From: Candidatus Moanabacter tarae
GTDB taxonomy: Bacteria > Verrucomicrobiota > Verrucomicrobiia > Opitutales > UBA2987
DNA length: 64,000 bases
Reading direction: 5' to 3'
NCBI GenBank assembly: GCA_003226295.1
Contig: CP029803.1
Coordinates: forward strand, 2,485,001-2,549,000
In this document: positions 12,754 through 45,825 of the stretch, one piece after another
How the letters are laid out: the number at the start of each line of letters is the position of its first letter
Position numbering within the stretch: the first letter of the stretch is position 1
Notes under the pieces: generated by a model
What the model was told of the DNA's origin: nothing
The model's input: the letters and a program-made list of their open reading frames with translations, nothing else
Databases searched by the model: none
Program-made: the position numbers and the translations under genes

Positions 12754-12794
12754 ATTCTTAAGTAAGATCCTTTCCTTTGTTCTGGGGTCTTACG

Positions 12795-13664
12795 ATGACT
12801 GAAAACGAGAGATATTTATTCGACATTAATGGTTATATTGTCGTACCTGAGGTGCTTTCTATAAAGGAAGTTTCCGAAGCCAATCGAGCGATCGATAAAC
12901 ACTCTGATGAGATTCAGGAGCGTACTGGAGATTTGTCGCTTTCTGGTGTGTCGTCCACTTTGAAGGGAATTGCGGGTCGAGGCGATGTGGGGGGCATGCT
13001 GACGTGGGAGAAACCCTGGTGTGATCCTTTTCGCGCTATGCTGATACACCCTAGAGTCGCGCCTTATTTACAAGCACTGTTGGGCCTTGGGTTTCGAATG
13101 GATCACAAGCCCAACCTAATTACGATGCGAGAAGGGACGGAAGGCCATGTTTTTCATGGATCTTCCGGGCCGGAATTTGATCCTCGCCAATATTATATTG
13201 TGAGAAATGGCCGGATGCATAATGGGTTGATGGTGGCAGCTTGGCAGCTTGCCGACCAAGACGAAGGGGATGGTGGGCTCTGTGTAATCCCAGGTAGCCA
13301 TAAAGGAAATTTCGCCTGTCCTGAGGAGATAAGAAATTTTGAAGCCTATCATGAGTTCATCAAGCAGATCACGGCTAAAGCGGGGGACGTGGTCATATTT
13401 TCAGAAGCTACTACTCACGGGACTTTACCTTGGAGAGCCAAGCACGAGCGGAGGTCTCTACTCTTTCGCTATTCGCCAAGTTGTTTGGCGTACTCAAGCA
13501 GTTATCTTTCTTGGCCGGAAGGGACATTGGACGGGCTAACATCAGAGCAACGAGCGATTCTGGAGCCTCCCTATCATAAGGAATTCAGGGAAAACGAATA
13601 CAACATTCCGCAAACGCGGGATCGTCGGATGGTTGATTATGGGGAAGCTCCTACAAAAGAATAA
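12795..13664 (+). CDS. PhyH-family protein lacking the canonical HxD
   Basis: A 289-residue phytanoyl-CoA dioxygenase-family protein, predicted Fe(II)/2-oxoglutarate type. It has the LFDINGYIVV N-terminus, the CVIPGSHKGNF core motif, distal His208 (TTHG) and Arg219/Arg220 for 2-oxoglutarate. The first metal motif reads His121-Gly-Ser123, so the Asp of HxD is missing; the paralogue at 33251-34072 has His-Cys-Ala at the equivalent place. It may use another ligand, bind the metal as a two-His site as in halogenases, or have lost activity. The ATG at 12795 is preferred to a TTG at 12777. The next gene starts 3 bp after its stop, so the two are translationally coupled. Substrate unknown. Confidence 0.85.
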   Translation: MTENERYLFDINGYIVVPEVLSIKEVSEANRAIDKHSDEIQERTGDLSLSGVSSTLKGIAGRGDVGGMLTWEKPWCDPFRAMLIHPRVAPYLQALLGLGFRMDHKPNLITMREGTEGHVFHGSSGPEFDPRQYYIVRNGRMHNGLMVAAWQLADQDEGDGGLCVIPGSHKGNFACPEEIRNFEAYHEFIKQITAKAGDVVIFSEATTHGTLPWRAKHERRSLLFRYSPSCLAYSSSYLSWPEGTLDGLTSEQRAILEPPYHKEFRENEYNIPQTRDRRMVDYGEAPTKE

Positions 13665-19182: not shown

Positions 19183-20121
19183 ATGGCGATAGCGATGACA
19201 CCGGAGCAGGAAAGGGACTTCGATGAGAAAGGGTTTATCATCCTTGAAGATTTTTTGCAAAAGGAAGAGTTAGGAAGACTCTTGTCAGCAATTGACGAAG
19301 TTGCGGTTCGTGTGCGTAAAGCGAAAGGTTTGGGTCCGAAGGAACCTTTTTCGATTCGTAATGCGTTGACCCATCATGATGCTTTCCTCGATTTGATTGA
19401 TCATTCGCGGATGCTGCCTTTGGTTGTGGATGCTATTGGTTGGAATATACAGATTCGGACTACTCATCTTGACTACCGTCCTCCTTATCCAAAGGAGATG
19501 CGTGTTGGCGAGGTGGGCAGGGGAAAGGGAGAAGATCATGATGCCGGCTATAAAAACGTGACGTGGCATCCGGATCTATCGGGAGATTATTTATTTGAGG
19601 CACCATCGCTGGATGGCCGATTGCCTTTTATGGAGGTCAAAGTCTTCTATGTCTTTTCCGATTTGAGCGAATCGAATTCTGGTAATCTTTGGTTGGTTCC
19701 GGGAAGTCACAAAAGAAAACCGGACGAACTCCGGAAAGACGACCGTACCATTGCTCCGGACGAAGCCTTAGAACTAAAGCTTGGACCCGGGACGGCTGTA
19801 CTTTGGCGTACTGCTACTTGGCACTGCGTGGGACCAAACCATTCGGATAAGATACGTAAAGTTATGCATGTGGGGTACCACTACCGGTGGCTTCGTCCTA
19901 CTGATTTCATTCATCAGGCCGATTCTGATTTGGTCGCGAGGAGTTCGCCAATTCGAAGACAGTTATTGGGCGCGGTTGTTACCGACGGAGAACCGTTGGG
20001 GAGTGATCCTGATTTTCTTCCCCATTCTCCCTATTGGCTTATTAAAGATGATGCTCAAGTACCGTTGAGAGCCTGGGCGGAGGACAAGGCTGACTTTCGG
20101 GCATTTCGGGCACCGCTTTAA
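19183..20121 (+). CDS. PhyH-family Fe(II)/2-oxoglutarate dioxygenase
   Basis: A 312-residue PhyH protein with the complete metal triad: His129-Pro-Asp131 (TWHPDLS) and distal His214 (ATWHCVGPN). Arg225 is placed to bind 2-oxoglutarate. LWLVPGSHKRKP is the family core. It should hydroxylate a small molecule with O2 and 2-oxoglutarate; the substrate is unknown. GGAGTAGG precedes the ATG. It is the full-length relative of the truncated gene at 42635-43297: both share the N-terminal 150 residues and the C-terminal PLGS..VPL+AWAED block. Confidence 0.9.
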   Translation: MAIAMTPEQERDFDEKGFIILEDFLQKEELGRLLSAIDEVAVRVRKAKGLGPKEPFSIRNALTHHDAFLDLIDHSRMLPLVVDAIGWNIQIRTTHLDYRPPYPKEMRVGEVGRGKGEDHDAGYKNVTWHPDLSGDYLFEAPSLDGRLPFMEVKVFYVFSDLSESNSGNLWLVPGSHKRKPDELRKDDRTIAPDEALELKLGPGTAVLWRTATWHCVGPNHSDKIRKVMHVGYHYRWLRPTDFIHQADSDLVARSSPIRRQLLGAVVTDGEPLGSDPDFLPHSPYWLIKDDAQVPLRAWAEDKADFRAFRAPL

Positions 20122-33250: not shown

Positions 33251-34072
33251 CTAACTAAGCGTCACGATCTCCTGCATTACAATTTCTTTGGTTCGGCTGC
33301 GGGGTACGAACTCGATCAACTCCCTGGTTTCGGGCGAAAGCCTTTCGAGGATTTCACTTGGGAAAGGAAATGGCAAATTATCGCCTATTGGACCCAAAAA
33401 TTGCGGAACATAGCGCAGCATGAGAAACCGGCGATCACGATTTCGGGGTCGCCAGGTAAGTACCCCATGGGTTAGAAGCTCAGGGATGATGACTACATCT
33501 CCGGCTTTCGGTGTCAGGTTGAGGACGGAGGGATGTGGATCGGGATCAGCGGTTTCTTTAGTGCTGACAAAGAATGAATCCGGTCGTTTGAACGCTCCTT
33601 TGTGGGAGCCAGGGATGACAACCAGACCTCCATCACCTGGGAAGACGTCCGTCAGGTAAAAAAAAACGACGAAATAATCACAGTAAATGAGGCCATTCTC
33701 AACAAAATAGCGGGGGGTTTGTGGCCCCCAATCGTCTCTGGCACAATGTAGAGAGTGAAATTTGGTATCTTCGTGTGTGTTGACTGTTAGATTTCCCTGT
33801 GCAAGTCGTGGTTTCAACCCTGTTAATTCCTTGACGATAGGCCACGTTTTGGGATGAAAAGCCAGGGCTTCCAGGGTCTTATCAAATGCGAACCCATGAC
33901 TGAAATTGCGCCCTTTTACTTCGAAACCAGAGGGAAGACTGTTGGAAGGTGTATCGATATAGCGCTGGGCTGCCTCCCTTGCAGCTGTCAGCTCCGAACC
34001 TTTTAGGGCTCCCTCAAGAAAGAGATACCCTGAGGTGTCGAAAAAGTAGCGTTGTTCAGAAGTCATCATCAC
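33251..34072 (-). CDS. PhyH-family protein with His-Cys-Ala in place of HxD
   Basis: A 273-residue PhyH-fold protein of the same subgroup as the gene at 12795 (shared pattern: NGL.....LTD...GDGGL.VIPGSHKG.F....THG.L.W). Distal His202 (LLTHG) and Arg214/Arg215 are present. At the first metal motif it has His109-Cys-Ala111, lacking Asp; Asp113 and Asp114 come shortly after, and an earlier HED (100-102) is out of register. In 2-oxoglutarate halogenases such as SyrB2 the same position is Ala or Gly and chloride binds the iron, so halogenation is a formal possibility besides loss of activity. Three Met codons begin the frame. It lies upstream of the NIPSNAP gene and is divergent from the DMFase-like gene. 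Confidence 0.82.
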   Translation of the reverse strand: MMMTSEQRYFFDTSGYLFLEGALKGSELTAAREAAQRYIDTPSNSLPSGFEVKGRNFSHGFAFDKTLEALAFHPKTWPIVKELTGLKPRLAQGNLTVNTHEDTKFHSLHCARDDWGPQTPRYFVENGLIYCDYFVVFFYLTDVFPGDGGLVVIPGSHKGAFKRPDSFFVSTKETADPDPHPSVLNLTPKAGDVVIIPELLTHGVLTWRPRNRDRRFLMLRYVPQFLGPIGDNLPFPFPSEILERLSPETRELIEFVPRSRTKEIVMQEIVTLS

Positions 34073-41448: not shown

Positions 41449-41548
41449 CCCTGATATTGACTGATGGAGCTACTGATTTCCCAGAGATAAGACTCGAAAA
41501 CTTTGAAGAGTCCATTTTAATTAGTGACAGAAATTGAGGAGACCCCCC

Positions 41549-42586
41549 ATGAGTAGAAAGATTGTGATTGGAATCACGCGGGAGTTTTTAAATGCGGAGG
41601 GCAACTTCGCTCTTCCTGGACCCGGACTAAAACTTTTCGACGAGATGCCAGGGGTTGAGTATCGGTTATTTAGCGAGGACCTTCCGGTAGTGACTCCCGA
41701 GCAGGTGCTCGGATGTGATATGGTTATTTCGGGCGGAATCCGATGGGAGAGCAGCTCCTTTGAAGGAATTGATCAACTCGTGGCGGTGCTCTATACTGGA
41801 GTCGGGTACGAGCATCTAGATCTTGATATTCTGACCGATGCCAACGTAATGTTTTGCATTGCGCCTGATGCGGTGCGCCGGCCAATGGCCTCGATTATCA
41901 TTACTATGTTACTAGCACTGACTTTACAGCTAATTAACAAGGATCGCATCACACGTGAAGGTCGTTGGGAGGAACAAGAACGATTTCGTGGTGAAGGTGT
42001 AACTGGCAAAACCCTCGGCTCAATTGGAGTAGGGAATATTGGCCATGAGATGTTTATGTTAGCTAAACCTTTCGGAATGCGGCATTTGGGGTGTGACCCC
42101 AATGTCACTCAGGAGGCGGTTGCCGAGGTTGGGGTTGAGTTAGTCGATTTGGGTCGTTTATTGGCGGAGTCTGATTTTGTGAATGTGAGTGTTCCACTTA
42201 GTGAGCAGACACGGCATTTGATTGGGGAGGCTGAACTGCAGAAAATGAAGCCTTCAGCTTATCTGATCAACACCTCCCGGGGTTCAGTTGTTGACGAGAC
42301 GGCTTTGATACGGTCTCTGCAAAGGGGCCAAATTCGTGGAGCTGGCCTCGATGTATTTGAACAGGAACCCGTAGATCCCGACAATCCGCTCCTGAAAATG
42401 GAGAACGTTGTCGTTTCCCCTCACTCTTTATGCCACACGGAAGAATTTTACATGAGAGCATGGACGGGAAAATTACAGCAGGCTAACCAAATTGCTCGAG
42501 GGAAGGTGCCTGATCATGTCGTCAATAGGGAAGTTCTAGATAAATTGGAGTTGCGGACGAAGCTTCGTAAATTTGGGGAAACTTAA
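41549..42586 (+). CDS. D-isomer-specific 2-hydroxyacid dehydrogenase
   Basis: A 345-residue NAD-dependent dehydrogenase of the SerA/hydroxypyruvate-reductase fold. GSIGVGNIG (157-165) is the cofactor loop, and Arg244 (NTSRGS), Glu273 (FEQEP) and His292 (SPHSLCH) form the catalytic set. There is no C-terminal ACT domain, so it is a short catabolic type, separate from the biosynthetic SerA at 55567. The ATG at 41549 follows TTGAGGAG. It would reduce or oxidise a 2-keto/2-hydroxy acid such as glyoxylate, hydroxypyruvate or a larger acid. It converges on the truncated PhyH gene. Confidence 0.9.
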   Translation: MSRKIVIGITREFLNAEGNFALPGPGLKLFDEMPGVEYRLFSEDLPVVTPEQVLGCDMVISGGIRWESSSFEGIDQLVAVLYTGVGYEHLDLDILTDANVMFCIAPDAVRRPMASIIITMLLALTLQLINKDRITREGRWEEQERFRGEGVTGKTLGSIGVGNIGHEMFMLAKPFGMRHLGCDPNVTQEAVAEVGVELVDLGRLLAESDFVNVSVPLSEQTRHLIGEAELQKMKPSAYLINTSRGSVVDETALIRSLQRGQIRGAGLDVFEQEPVDPDNPLLKMENVVVSPHSLCHTEEFYMRAWTGKLQQANQIARGKVPDHVVNREVLDKLELRTKLRKFGET

Positions 42587-42634
42587 AAACTCTCGTTGAG
42601 CTTGGCCAAATTATAAAACGTGAACTCTGGTTAA

Positions 42635-43297
42635 CTACACTTTTTTCTCTGGAACCTTCAGCTGAGTAAACTCGAAGTCGGGTCCTTTGGAGAAGGTGGC
42701 TCCGTAACCTAGTCCCCAACCGTGCGGGCCGTCACCAGCTTGATCCTCGGCCCAGGCCTTGAGAGGAACGCTATCCCAATCTTCAGTGAACCAATACTGG
42801 GACTCGGGTCTGGATGTGGGTTCGCTCCCGAGAGGATTTCCGTTATGTCCCGGTTCGGCGTGATCCGAAATGTACCAGCCAACTTTAAAATCTAGAAGTG
42901 GCATGACCCTGTCGACCGTGGTGCCGGCAAACTCTTCTTCGTAGACAAAGTGCCAGCCTAGTTTCAACTTTTTGGGATCGGAGCCTTCTTGCAGGGGCGC
43001 CGCGTAGTCGAAAATGGAGTCACGATTCTGGATGTTCCATCCTAACGCATCTACTACTAAGGGAAGGATCTTCGGATGGTCCAATAAGGCCAGGAAGGCT
43101 TCATGGCGTACCAGACCGTTGCGACAAGACACGCTTTCCTTAGATTCCACGCCTTTTTCCTGCCGAAGGTGATTCGCAACCTCGTCCATTGCGGACGATA
43201 TCCGCTCCAATTCCTCATCCACTAGGAGATTCTCCAGCACCGTCCAGCCCCAATCGTTGAGCTGGTGTACTTGTGTCGCTGTTATCGCAATAGTCAT
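42635..43297 (-). pseudogene. Internally truncated PhyH paralogue
   Basis: This 220-residue open frame matches the 312-residue PhyH protein at 19183 end to end except for an internal gap. The first 150 or so residues align (MTIAIT, LLDHPKILPLVVDALGWNIQ against LIDHSRMLPLVVDAIGWNIQ), then the sequence jumps to PLGSEP..VPLKAWAED, matching PLGSDP..VPLRAWAED. About 100 residues are missing, taking the GSHK core, the distal His and the 2-oxoglutarate Arg. In addition HPD is replaced by His-Phe-Val at 116-118, and the C-terminus is extended by some 30 new residues. The frame is open, so a product may still be made, but it cannot be a standard dioxygenase. Confidence 0.75.
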
Positions 43298-43472
43298 TAT
43301 AGAAGTCGTCCTGATTTGGTAAAACTTGGACAGTCCTCAACCGGGGGCAGGTAGCTTTCTGATTGGTCAAAAGTCAACGAGAAGATGTTGTTAAAAAGTT
43401 ACAATCCCGAATTGAATATAAGCTTGCTGGCTATCTATATTAATGTGAGCGTGCCCTTCCAGAACGGTGAGC

Positions 43473-43841
43473 ATGGAGGAAGAGATTGAGCTGGCTCGAA
43501 AGTATGTTAATCTTTCCAATCGTCATGAATTAGAAATGGTTTTTCGTATGTTCGATGAGAATGCGGTATATCATTCTAATTCCGTAGGCTCGTTCAAAGG
43601 CTTGGTGGCAATATCTACAATGATGCGGGAATTTTTCGCGCGGTATAAGGATGTCCATTGGGTGGTAGATAAGTACAGCGTCTCTAAAAAGGGAGGCGTT
43701 GAGTTCGGGTTTGTTCGACGTAGTTCCGACCCAGAGTCAGGCAAAGCAACAAGCGGAAGAGGGTGGGAGCGAATTGTTTTCAATGATACAGGCCTCATCA
43801 CGGAGATCGAGGTGGATACATTTAAATCCAGATCTTCATAG
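43473..43841 (+). CDS. SnoaL-like / NTF2-fold small protein
   Basis: A 122-residue cone-shaped alpha+beta-barrel protein. ELARKYVNLSNRHELEMVFRMFDENAVYHSN followed by FKGLVAISTMMREFFARYKDVHW is the typical helix-strand layout of SnoaL-like polyketide-cyclase/ketosteroid-isomerase relatives. No catalytic acid can be fixed, and the partner is unknown. ATG at 43473 or GTG at 43467 may be used. It is the last gene of the accessory stretch; its stop lies 16 bp from the parC stop. Confidence 0.75.
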   Translation: MEEEIELARKYVNLSNRHELEMVFRMFDENAVYHSNSVGSFKGLVAISTMMREFFARYKDVHWVVDKYSVSKKGGVEFGFVRRSSDPESGKATSGRGWERIVFNDTGLITEIEVDTFKSRSS

Positions 43842-43857
43842 TTCTAATAATGGGTGC

Positions 43858-45825
43858 CTAACCCGAAAGATTCTTGGATACTCGCTGTACTTTATGACGA
43901 GTAACTATATTCCCGCGAGAGTCTCTGCCTTTGAGCGCAAGTTGCGAAAAGTCAAAGTCGATGATCTTGTTTCGAGCTTTCGATTGCGGGTCCAGGTGGA
44001 GATGGACGATCCCTTCTGATTCACCGCATATTATTTGGTTAAAGAAGAGAATACGAGTGCCTGGATTTCCCTGTGCAAGATCGTAAAGCTTGTCCCTGGT
44101 AACCCCAGAAACACGAAATTTTTTTGCAAAGGTACGACCAGATTTACCGTCTCGATAAATCATGCTGTAGACGACTGGAGCTTCTTTGTTGAATATAGCG
44201 ATGTGGGCAGGGTTTTTCCCTACGAATGACTTTTCGGTAACACGCGATACCTGCATTGTGCCGTCCCTCCTGAAGACAATGATGTCATCCATACGTGAAC
44301 ATTTTTCTATGGCTCGTTCGCGTTTCAGTCCAACACCGGCGAATCCTTCCTGGGCGTTAAGAAAGAGAGTTTCTCCGGCCACCGCTACTTTAGAGGCGAT
44401 AATCCTATCAAACTTTTCAATGGAGGTGCGTCGCTTCTGATTCTCACCGAATTGATTTTTCAATTCCTTAAAGTATCGAACCGTGTATCTAGTCAGGCCC
44501 TTGAGATTTCTTCTGACCTGATCAATATCCCTTTCGAGGGCGTCAATTTGGTCTGTTGCCTTTAGCAAATCGTATTTTGAAATTCTTTTTATGCGGATCT
44601 CGAGAAGTCGGAGAATATCATCTTTTGTTATTTTCCTCTTCAGTGGTTTTTGGTAAGGTGCGAGAGCATCTGAAACCACATTTATTACTGCATCCCAAGT
44701 TATTTTGTTCTCAATTTTCCGGTAGATCTTTTTCGCAATAAAGATCCGTTCAAGTGATAGGGAATGCCATTGCTCGAGGAGTTCATTTAGCCGGATCTCA
44801 AGTTCCTGAGCGAGAAGTTCTTTAGTTTTGAACGCGGAACGCTTAAGAAGGTCGTTGACGGAAAGAAAGCGAGGTTTCATGTTATCGATCACGCAAGTAT
44901 TCGGAGCAATTGATACTTCGCAGTCGGTGAATGCGTAGAGCGCCTGGATTGCCTGGGAGGAATCGGTACCGGGTGGAAGGTGGATTATAATTTCAACTTC
45001 CTCGGCAGTATTGTCTTCAATTTTGTTAATTTTAATCTTCCCCTTTTCGTTAGCCGCAAGAATTGAATCGATCAGGCTCGTGGTGGTTGAGCCGAAAGGT
45101 ATCTCCACGATTGCCAGTCTCCTTCTTGGGAGGATTTCAATTTTCGCCCGGATGCGGACCCGCCCACCTCGCATTCCTCCGTTGTAGTCACTAGAATCGG
45201 CGATTCCCCCGCTTGGAAAATCAGGAAGGATGTTTGTTTTCTTTCTTCGAAGAGCATCGATTGATGCATCGACCAGTTCATTAAAGTTGTGGGGTAGGAT
45301 TTTGGTTGAGAGGCCGACCGCTATACCTTCTGCGCCGTGTGCTAAGAGAAGAGGAAATTTCACTGGGAAGCTGACTGGTTCCCTGTTGCGTCCATCGTAG
45401 GAATTGGCCCAGAGGGTTGTTTTAGAATTAAAAATGACTGCTAAAGCAAATCTAGAGAGACGTGCCTCAATGTAACGGGCAGCTGCAGCAGGATCTCCGG
45501 TAGCAGGATTCCCCCAGTTACCTTGGCAGTCGATGAGAAGATGTTTTTGGCCTAGCTGAATGAGAGCATCCGCGATAGCAGCGTCTCCGTGGGGGTGATA
45601 TTTCATAGTGTTGCCGACAACATTGGCCACTTTATTATAGCGACCATCCTCCATTTCTCGCATGGAATGAAGGATGCGGCGTTGAACTGGTTTCAATCCG
45701 TCCTCTATACTGGGCACGGCCCGTTCGAGAATCACGTAAGAAGCATAATCTAAAAACCAGTCACTATACAAATCGGCGACGTGAGGAACAACGGGAGCCG
45801 GAGCTGGTTTTCTCTTTCGGACCAT
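43858..45825 (-). CDS. parC: DNA topoisomerase IV subunit A
   Basis: A 655-residue type IIA topoisomerase A subunit. VQRRILHSM and KYHPHGD (78-81) are the winged-helix motifs, and Tyr118 in AARYIEARLS is the DNA-linking tyrosine. The C-terminal beta-pinwheel is short, with no GyrA box seen, which together with the partner supports topoisomerase IV over gyrase. It is shorter than the enterobacterial protein (about 750), similar to the form found in Bacteroidota and Verrucomicrobiota. It decatenates sister chromosomes with ParE. It lies 14 bp downstream of parE on the same strand, forming an operon. Confidence 0.88.
   Translation of the reverse strand: MVRKRKPAPAPVVPHVADLYSDWFLDYASYVILERAVPSIEDGLKPVQRRILHSMREMEDGRYNKVANVVGNTMKYHPHGDAAIADALIQLGQKHLLIDCQGNWGNPATGDPAAAARYIEARLSRFALAVIFNSKTTLWANSYDGRNREPVSFPVKFPLLLAHGAEGIAVGLSTKILPHNFNELVDASIDALRRKKTNILPDFPSGGIADSSDYNGGMRGGRVRIRAKIEILPRRRLAIVEIPFGSTTTSLIDSILAANEKGKIKINKIEDNTAEEVEIIIHLPPGTDSSQAIQALYAFTDCEVSIAPNTCVIDNMKPRFLSVNDLLKRSAFKTKELLAQELEIRLNELLEQWHSLSLERIFIAKKIYRKIENKITWDAVINVVSDALAPYQKPLKRKITKDDILRLLEIRIKRISKYDLLKATDQIDALERDIDQVRRNLKGLTRYTVRYFKELKNQFGENQKRRTSIEKFDRIIASKVAVAGETLFLNAQEGFAGVGLKRERAIEKCSRMDDIIVFRRDGTMQVSRVTEKSFVGKNPAHIAIFNKEAPVVYSMIYRDGKSGRTFAKKFRVSGVTRDKLYDLAQGNPGTRILFFNQIICGESEGIVHLHLDPQSKARNKIIDFDFSQLALKGRDSRGNIVTRHKVQRVSKNLSG

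Follow-up and report, generated by a model that had tools for sequence, protein, structure and literature searches.

Expansions of the PhyH family are already in print for a phylum of sponge symbionts, because Kamke et al. (2014; PMC3909097), in their account of these domains, place a PhyH domain in more than 1.9% of the genes in all poribacterial genomes and describe most of these genes as being without reliable functional annotation. Loss of a catalytic residue has also been described for this enzyme class. TlxI, as presented in PMC12141560, is without the 2-oxoglutarate Arg and one of its loops is short, yet it forms an extensive heterodimer interface.

We find 84 matches to PF05721 in the 2.63-Mb genome of Candidatus Moanabacter tarae, one of them with an internal TAG; a looser profile search gives 98 PhyH matches, four of which contain in-frame stops, and some of these stops may be located beyond the end of a gene. 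A second genome from this order, G016 of 2.1 Mb, has at least 46 PhyH matches (46 of 46 scored, from 111 first-look candidates), three genomes within the taxonomic family contain 11, 15 and 21, and no PhyH match is found in 30 of the 52 genomes searched, a set that includes the window's own genome. Here we analyze one gene of this family, 220 codons long, within a stretch of 64,000 nucleotides that we call the window. We put the probability at roughly 0.8 that it is a recently inactivated PhyH-family oxygenase gene, reflecting ordinary turnover in a genome so rich in PhyH matches.

The short gene and its intact sister

The first-pass annotation had described an open frame of 220 codons that was shortened relative to a 312-residue paralogue at 19183. 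The frame is indeed present on the minus strand and starts with ATG (Table 1), with AGGA 11 nt upstream, and the top minus-strand match of a promoter scan overlaps its start codon. The gene is solitary, being convergent with a D-2-hydroxyacid dehydrogenase gene and divergent from a SnoaL-like gene. No RNA family reaches its gathering score in the 64-kb window, and searches for viral contigs and for plasmids gave no match. We further note that the dehydrogenase family has 18 matches at E 1e-20 in the window's genome, compared with 4, 8 and 8 in three other genomes from the organism's family.

The relationship to the 19183 paralogue is borne out by BLASTP (38% identity over 174 columns, E 1e-33), and the paralogue itself matches PF05721 at E 5.8e-16. 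The short protein has no Pfam match at limits of E 0.001 or 10 (HMMER's filters drop most matches above about 0.1) and no NCBIfam match at 0.1. One relative was recovered with it from the genome_contigs collection (84,980 species), where the scan by short peptide patterns detects close relatives only. This relative, L006 (OY282370.1, L006:4001-4957, from an uncultured Acidimicrobiia), covers query residues 3-217 and is an intact PhyH of 318 aa with a PF05721 match at E 2.7e-13. When L006 is used to search the window's genome, it matches the locus in two pieces, residues 3-150 (53% identity) and 252-316 (62%), which lie 3 nt apart and thus indicate that about 100 residues (roughly L006 152-251) were deleted in frame. 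The short form is a real open reading frame, and this significant homology together with its placement inside the family tree marks it as a descendant of the PhyH-type Fe(II)/2-oxoglutarate oxygenases.

The tree, built from 14 proteins of our choosing (ten from an existing alignment and four further from the window's genome), groups the short form and L006 as sisters (100/98) and places the 19183 paralogue in a separate pair with L007 of G016 (95/96). The long branches flagged by the tree program (L083 and L086) fall outside the short form/L006 group. An insert of 18 residues is present in the alignment in 19183 and L007 and absent from both the short form and L006, so that 19183, which had served as the reference for comparison, is not the proper parent or reference for the short gene. 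The paralogue retains its full catalytic set and has no C-terminal tail, whereas the last ~30 residues of the short form can be aligned with L006 with no large gap, and both contain the run SKGPDF there. The same tail in an intact relative rules out the gain of about 30 residues that had been claimed, and on sequence grounds the tail is most simply ancestral to the subgroup formed by the short form and L006. The argument for a new role based on a new tail falls with it. The deletion and the loss of the HxD Asp are confirmed, but with a nearby paralogue as reference in place of the true sister, a tail that was inherited can be mistaken for a newly gained domain. That the short gene arose as a duplicate of the 19183 gene, later deleted and fitted with a new tail, is highly improbable: the two share the same 64 kb and the identity noted above over their common part, but the tree separates them, and the tail and the absence of the insert are common to L006 and not to 19183.

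A longer version in the same organism had been named as a finding that would speak against a deletion, and genome searches return paralogues only, with no longer copy of this gene. A split gene with its middle elsewhere in the window is ruled out, as L006 152-251 matches only 19183 below E 1e-3 and none of its five window matches up to E 1 lies near the short gene. Across the whole genome a split gene is rejected less firmly, the L006 search having scored the best 7 of 40 candidates; in a genome profile search with 122 of 122 candidates scored, the only match near the short gene is its own N-terminal part. One imperfect inverted-repeat pair (27 nt, 74%) flanks the gene, and a mobile cassette bounded by it is rejected as chance. 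Pairs at least as good occur in 4 of 33 window tiles of 1601 bp (overlap of a tile with the locus is possible), and no second instance of the arm pattern exists in the window.

Table 1. Features of the locus and related PhyH genes, in window coordinates unless a locus handle is given.
Feature	Position	Strand	Basis or remark
Internally deleted PhyH-family gene, 220 codons	42635-43297	-	ORF; L006 sister in tree
Codon 116, proximal His of HxD	42950-42952	-	Retained
Codon 118, Val (GTC)	42944-42946	-	Asp of HxD in most of family
Deletion junction, codons 151-154 (H-N-G-N)	42836-42847	-	L006 ~152-251 (~100 residues) absent
C-terminal tail, residues 189-220	42638-42733	-	Common to L006, hence inherited
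Intact 312-aa PhyH paralogue	19183-20121	+	Other subgroup (with L007 of G016)
D-2-hydroxyacid dehydrogenase gene (PF02826)	41534-42586	+	Tail to tail with short gene
SnoaL-like gene (PF12680)	43467-43841		Head to head with short gene
parC-like ORF	43858-45825		Named by reading translation; beyond SnoaL-like gene
PhyH-like ORF, HxD Asp replaced	12777-13664	+	
PhyH-like ORF, HxD Asp replaced	33251-34072	-	
PhyH-like ORFs, HxD Asp replaced	L062, L086, L090, L095, L096, L100, L102, L115, L116		

Lost active-site residues and the predicted fold

The deleted stretch lies between His151 and Gly153 of the short form, and the alignment places PGSH (157-160), His198 and Arg209 of L006 inside the missing part. 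The distal iron-binding His and the Arg that we take to be the 2-oxoglutarate binder of the PhyH family are thus both absent. Counted over an alignment of 21 members with the short form left out, H115, G187, H198 and R209 (L006 numbering) are invariant and P157-H160 nearly so. The aligner put one His residue of the short form into the column of the distal His, but its sequence context identifies it as His151 beside the junction and not the distal His. The iron motif HxD/E is lost as well, reading H116-F-V118 in the short form and HFD in L006. The earlier account of these losses, comprising the GSHK core, the distal His, the Arg and the HxD Asp, therefore stands.

The column of the HxD Asp holds Asp in 78 of 92 aligned sequences and another residue in 14, with Val in the short form only. 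The 92 sequences comprise the short form and L006 together with 90 PhyH-like ORFs (at least 230 aa) from the same genome. A home-made profile applied to the 84 PhyH loci gave 96 distinct ORFs, of which six shorter ones were dropped. Four of the 90 share long identical stretches with another, mostly as one gene in two overlapping loci, and merging leaves 86, of which 73 keep the Asp. None of the remaining 13 has Val, and all of them retain the distal His and the Arg. Given these 13 of 86, loss of the HxD Asp is by itself no proof of a dead gene.

Eleven of the 86 ORFs retain the proximal His, the distal His and the Arg and have Gly, Ala, Ser or Asn in place of the HxD Asp; two more have His. 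In nine of the eleven, F[ST]E directly precedes the distal His. Fe/2OG halogenases have Ala or Gly in place of this Asp, and by analogy the eleven ORFs may be halogenase-like or use another ligand.

The loss of the Asp also bears on an assembly or sequencing error, under which the true gene would be of full length, with 300 bp omitted from the sequence. The sequence is known from one genome only, which leaves room for such an error, but the Asp lies 33 codons from the junction and a dropped stretch would not explain its loss. The contig is moreover a single 2.63-Mb piece (98.21% complete), and direct repeats reaching 12 nt are absent from 42300-43900. We consider such an error unlikely.

AlphaFold2 models the short form with a mean pLDDT of 64.8 and a pTM of 0.57 (22-row alignment). 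Averages over blocks of ten residues are 71-95 as far as residue 110, confidence is low past about that residue, and residues 113-127, 147-172 and 188-220 fall below 50. The model contains two strands of at least three residues and no complete double-stranded beta-helix, which is complete in the L006 control. L006 itself (pLDDT 81.8, pTM 0.82, 21 rows) is predicted as a jelly roll with its barrel strands present, and strands E153-155, E180-182, E188-192, E198-200 and E209-218 lie within the deleted part. Residues 294-318 of the L006 tail are also below 50, so the disorder predicted for the tail of the short form is uninformative.

The confident prediction of the first ~110 residues, together with the open frame and an unraised rate of change, would fit retention of the short protein in a non-catalytic role, as partner or regulator, with its N-terminal region binding a full-length PhyH (for example the 19183 product) or a substrate. 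A precedent within the enzyme class is the catalytically incompetent TlxI, which supports TlxJ according to PMC12141560. However, the interface that this source describes is kept in TlxI, while the short form has lost ~100 barrel residues and its remainder is predicted without a barrel. The gene also stands alone between convergent and divergent neighbours, and the short form was not found in other genomes searched. We regard a partner or regulator as improbable. The same holds for the more specific proposal of a retained barrel-less PhyH in which an N-terminal helical module and the inherited tail would serve as a non-catalytic partner or decoy for one of the many full-length PhyH enzymes in the cell. 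Nothing that we find speaks positively for the new role that had been suggested for the shortened protein.

Timing and origin of the probable inactivation

At the 125 sites where both outgroups (19183 and L007) agree, the short form has 10 unique changes and L006 has 19. The corresponding counts are 19 and 27 over 194 sites if 19183 is the sole outgroup and 12 and 23 over 188 sites if L007 is, and the branch lengths in the tree are 0.32 and 0.52. By these counts, the short lineage is no faster than L006 and gives no sign of a long neutral phase. Codon positions 1, 2 and 3 differ at 0.349, 0.307 and 0.583 over 218 codons, and 64 of 117 identical-residue codons differ synonymously, which we take as saturated. 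In a simulation of random, uniform substitutions only, the frame stays open with a chance of 0.51 after 15 changes (2.3%), 0.28 after 30 and 0.07 after 60 (9.1%).

The open frame and the unraised rate fit either recent loss or continuing selection, and these data do not separate the two. We prefer recent loss because of the two separate active-site lesions, the missing barrel and the fact that the short form is unseen elsewhere; the recent decay offered as one explanation in the first-pass annotation thus fits the data. On the other side, a maintained gene would look alike, with a fully open frame free of stops and frameshifts and AGGA before its ATG, and an unraised rate is equally expected under continued selection. 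The frame is moreover kept by chance in one third of deletions.

Related genomes, in which the same short form had been proposed as a check, yield it in none of the others searched, and none of the papers listed by a literature search deals with the gene. With the short form as query, 3 of 52 relative genomes have a match at E 0.001; 19183 (49% and 56%) and a G016 gene (44% and 53%) are likewise matched as two segments, and both frames are 313 aa with the middle present. With L006 as query, matches occur in 13 of 286 genomes of the class, 7 of 288 of the phylum, 5 of 138 of the order of L006's genome and, at E 1e-20, 9 of 395 of the class of L006's genome and 6 of 372 of the order. Either the window's own genome or that of L006 is included in every count, the genome sets overlap and several are samples of larger groups, and the searches of 286, 288, 395 and 372 genomes scored no more than the best 5 to 7 candidates in each genome. 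Leaving aside L006 and the window's gene, the best match listed in the searches with L006 is 41% identical (19183 and G016), and among the matches listed in those searches the two-piece pattern is found in the window's gene only. Within the searched data, the tail-bearing subgroup comprises the window's genome and one Acidimicrobiia only, and further members may exist elsewhere.

The GC3 of the short gene is 0.584, compared with 0.468 ± 0.041 for the 86 merged PhyH-like ORFs of the genome (0.467 ± 0.040 for the 90 before merging), one of which is at or above it (maximum 0.61). The 35 window ORFs of at least 280 aa have a GC3 of 0.477 ± 0.028 (maximum 0.571), and that of L006 is 0.909. This composition suggests that the short gene arrived horizontally, from a GC-richer genome. 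Under recent inactivation, the ancestor would be a PhyH of the tail-bearing subgroup acquired in this way. An in-frame loss of ~300 bp took out the larger part of the double-stranded beta-helix along with the distal His and the 2-oxoglutarate Arg, and Val stands in place of the HxD Asp, both lesions being visible against L006. With these ligands missing, the remainder could presumably not bind iron and 2-oxoglutarate in the family's way, and stops and frameshifts would not yet have had time to arise, leaving the frame open.

In so large a family, a handful of broken genes is probably to be expected. Elsewhere in the genome (G000), L051 (G000:C1:1755570-1756199, minus strand) is a PhyH with an otherwise readable frame and a TAG inside HxD, between His and Asp, and represents either another broken member of the family or a case of unusual readthrough. 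The PhyH neighbours G000:C1:847797-848405 and 848657-849265 (minus strand) have equal scores and share long identical stretches, and are probably a recent tandem duplication. A single decayed copy is of little import by itself. Pfam counts can overlook decayed family members, and a 2.63-Mb genome with 84 PhyH matches would allow birth and death to be traced within one large oxygenase family.

Comparison with described PhyH-type proteins

The Foldseek matches listed for L006 are PhyH-type oxygenases, with 8zyb as the best (E 2.8e-16) and 7VBQ (TlxIJ) at rank 5, and a profile search of solved chains includes EctD, DhiD, SnoK, SptF, SyrB2 and PHYH among the matches listed. EctD (3emr), DhiD (8zyb), SnoK (5epa), SptF (7eyw) and TlxIJ (7vbq) thus match the intact relatives in both profile and fold. 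Unlike these solved Fe(II)/2OG oxygenases, the short form is without most of the barrel and without two of the three iron ligands. Human PHYHD1 isoform C resembles it as a form of a PHYH relative that PMC12709175 reports as inactive, but is an isoform of an active human gene and not a decayed bacterial gene. TlxI, as PMC12141560 presents it, is similar in being a protein of the same class that has lost a residue needed for catalysis, and differs in forming a solved heterodimer with a large interface.
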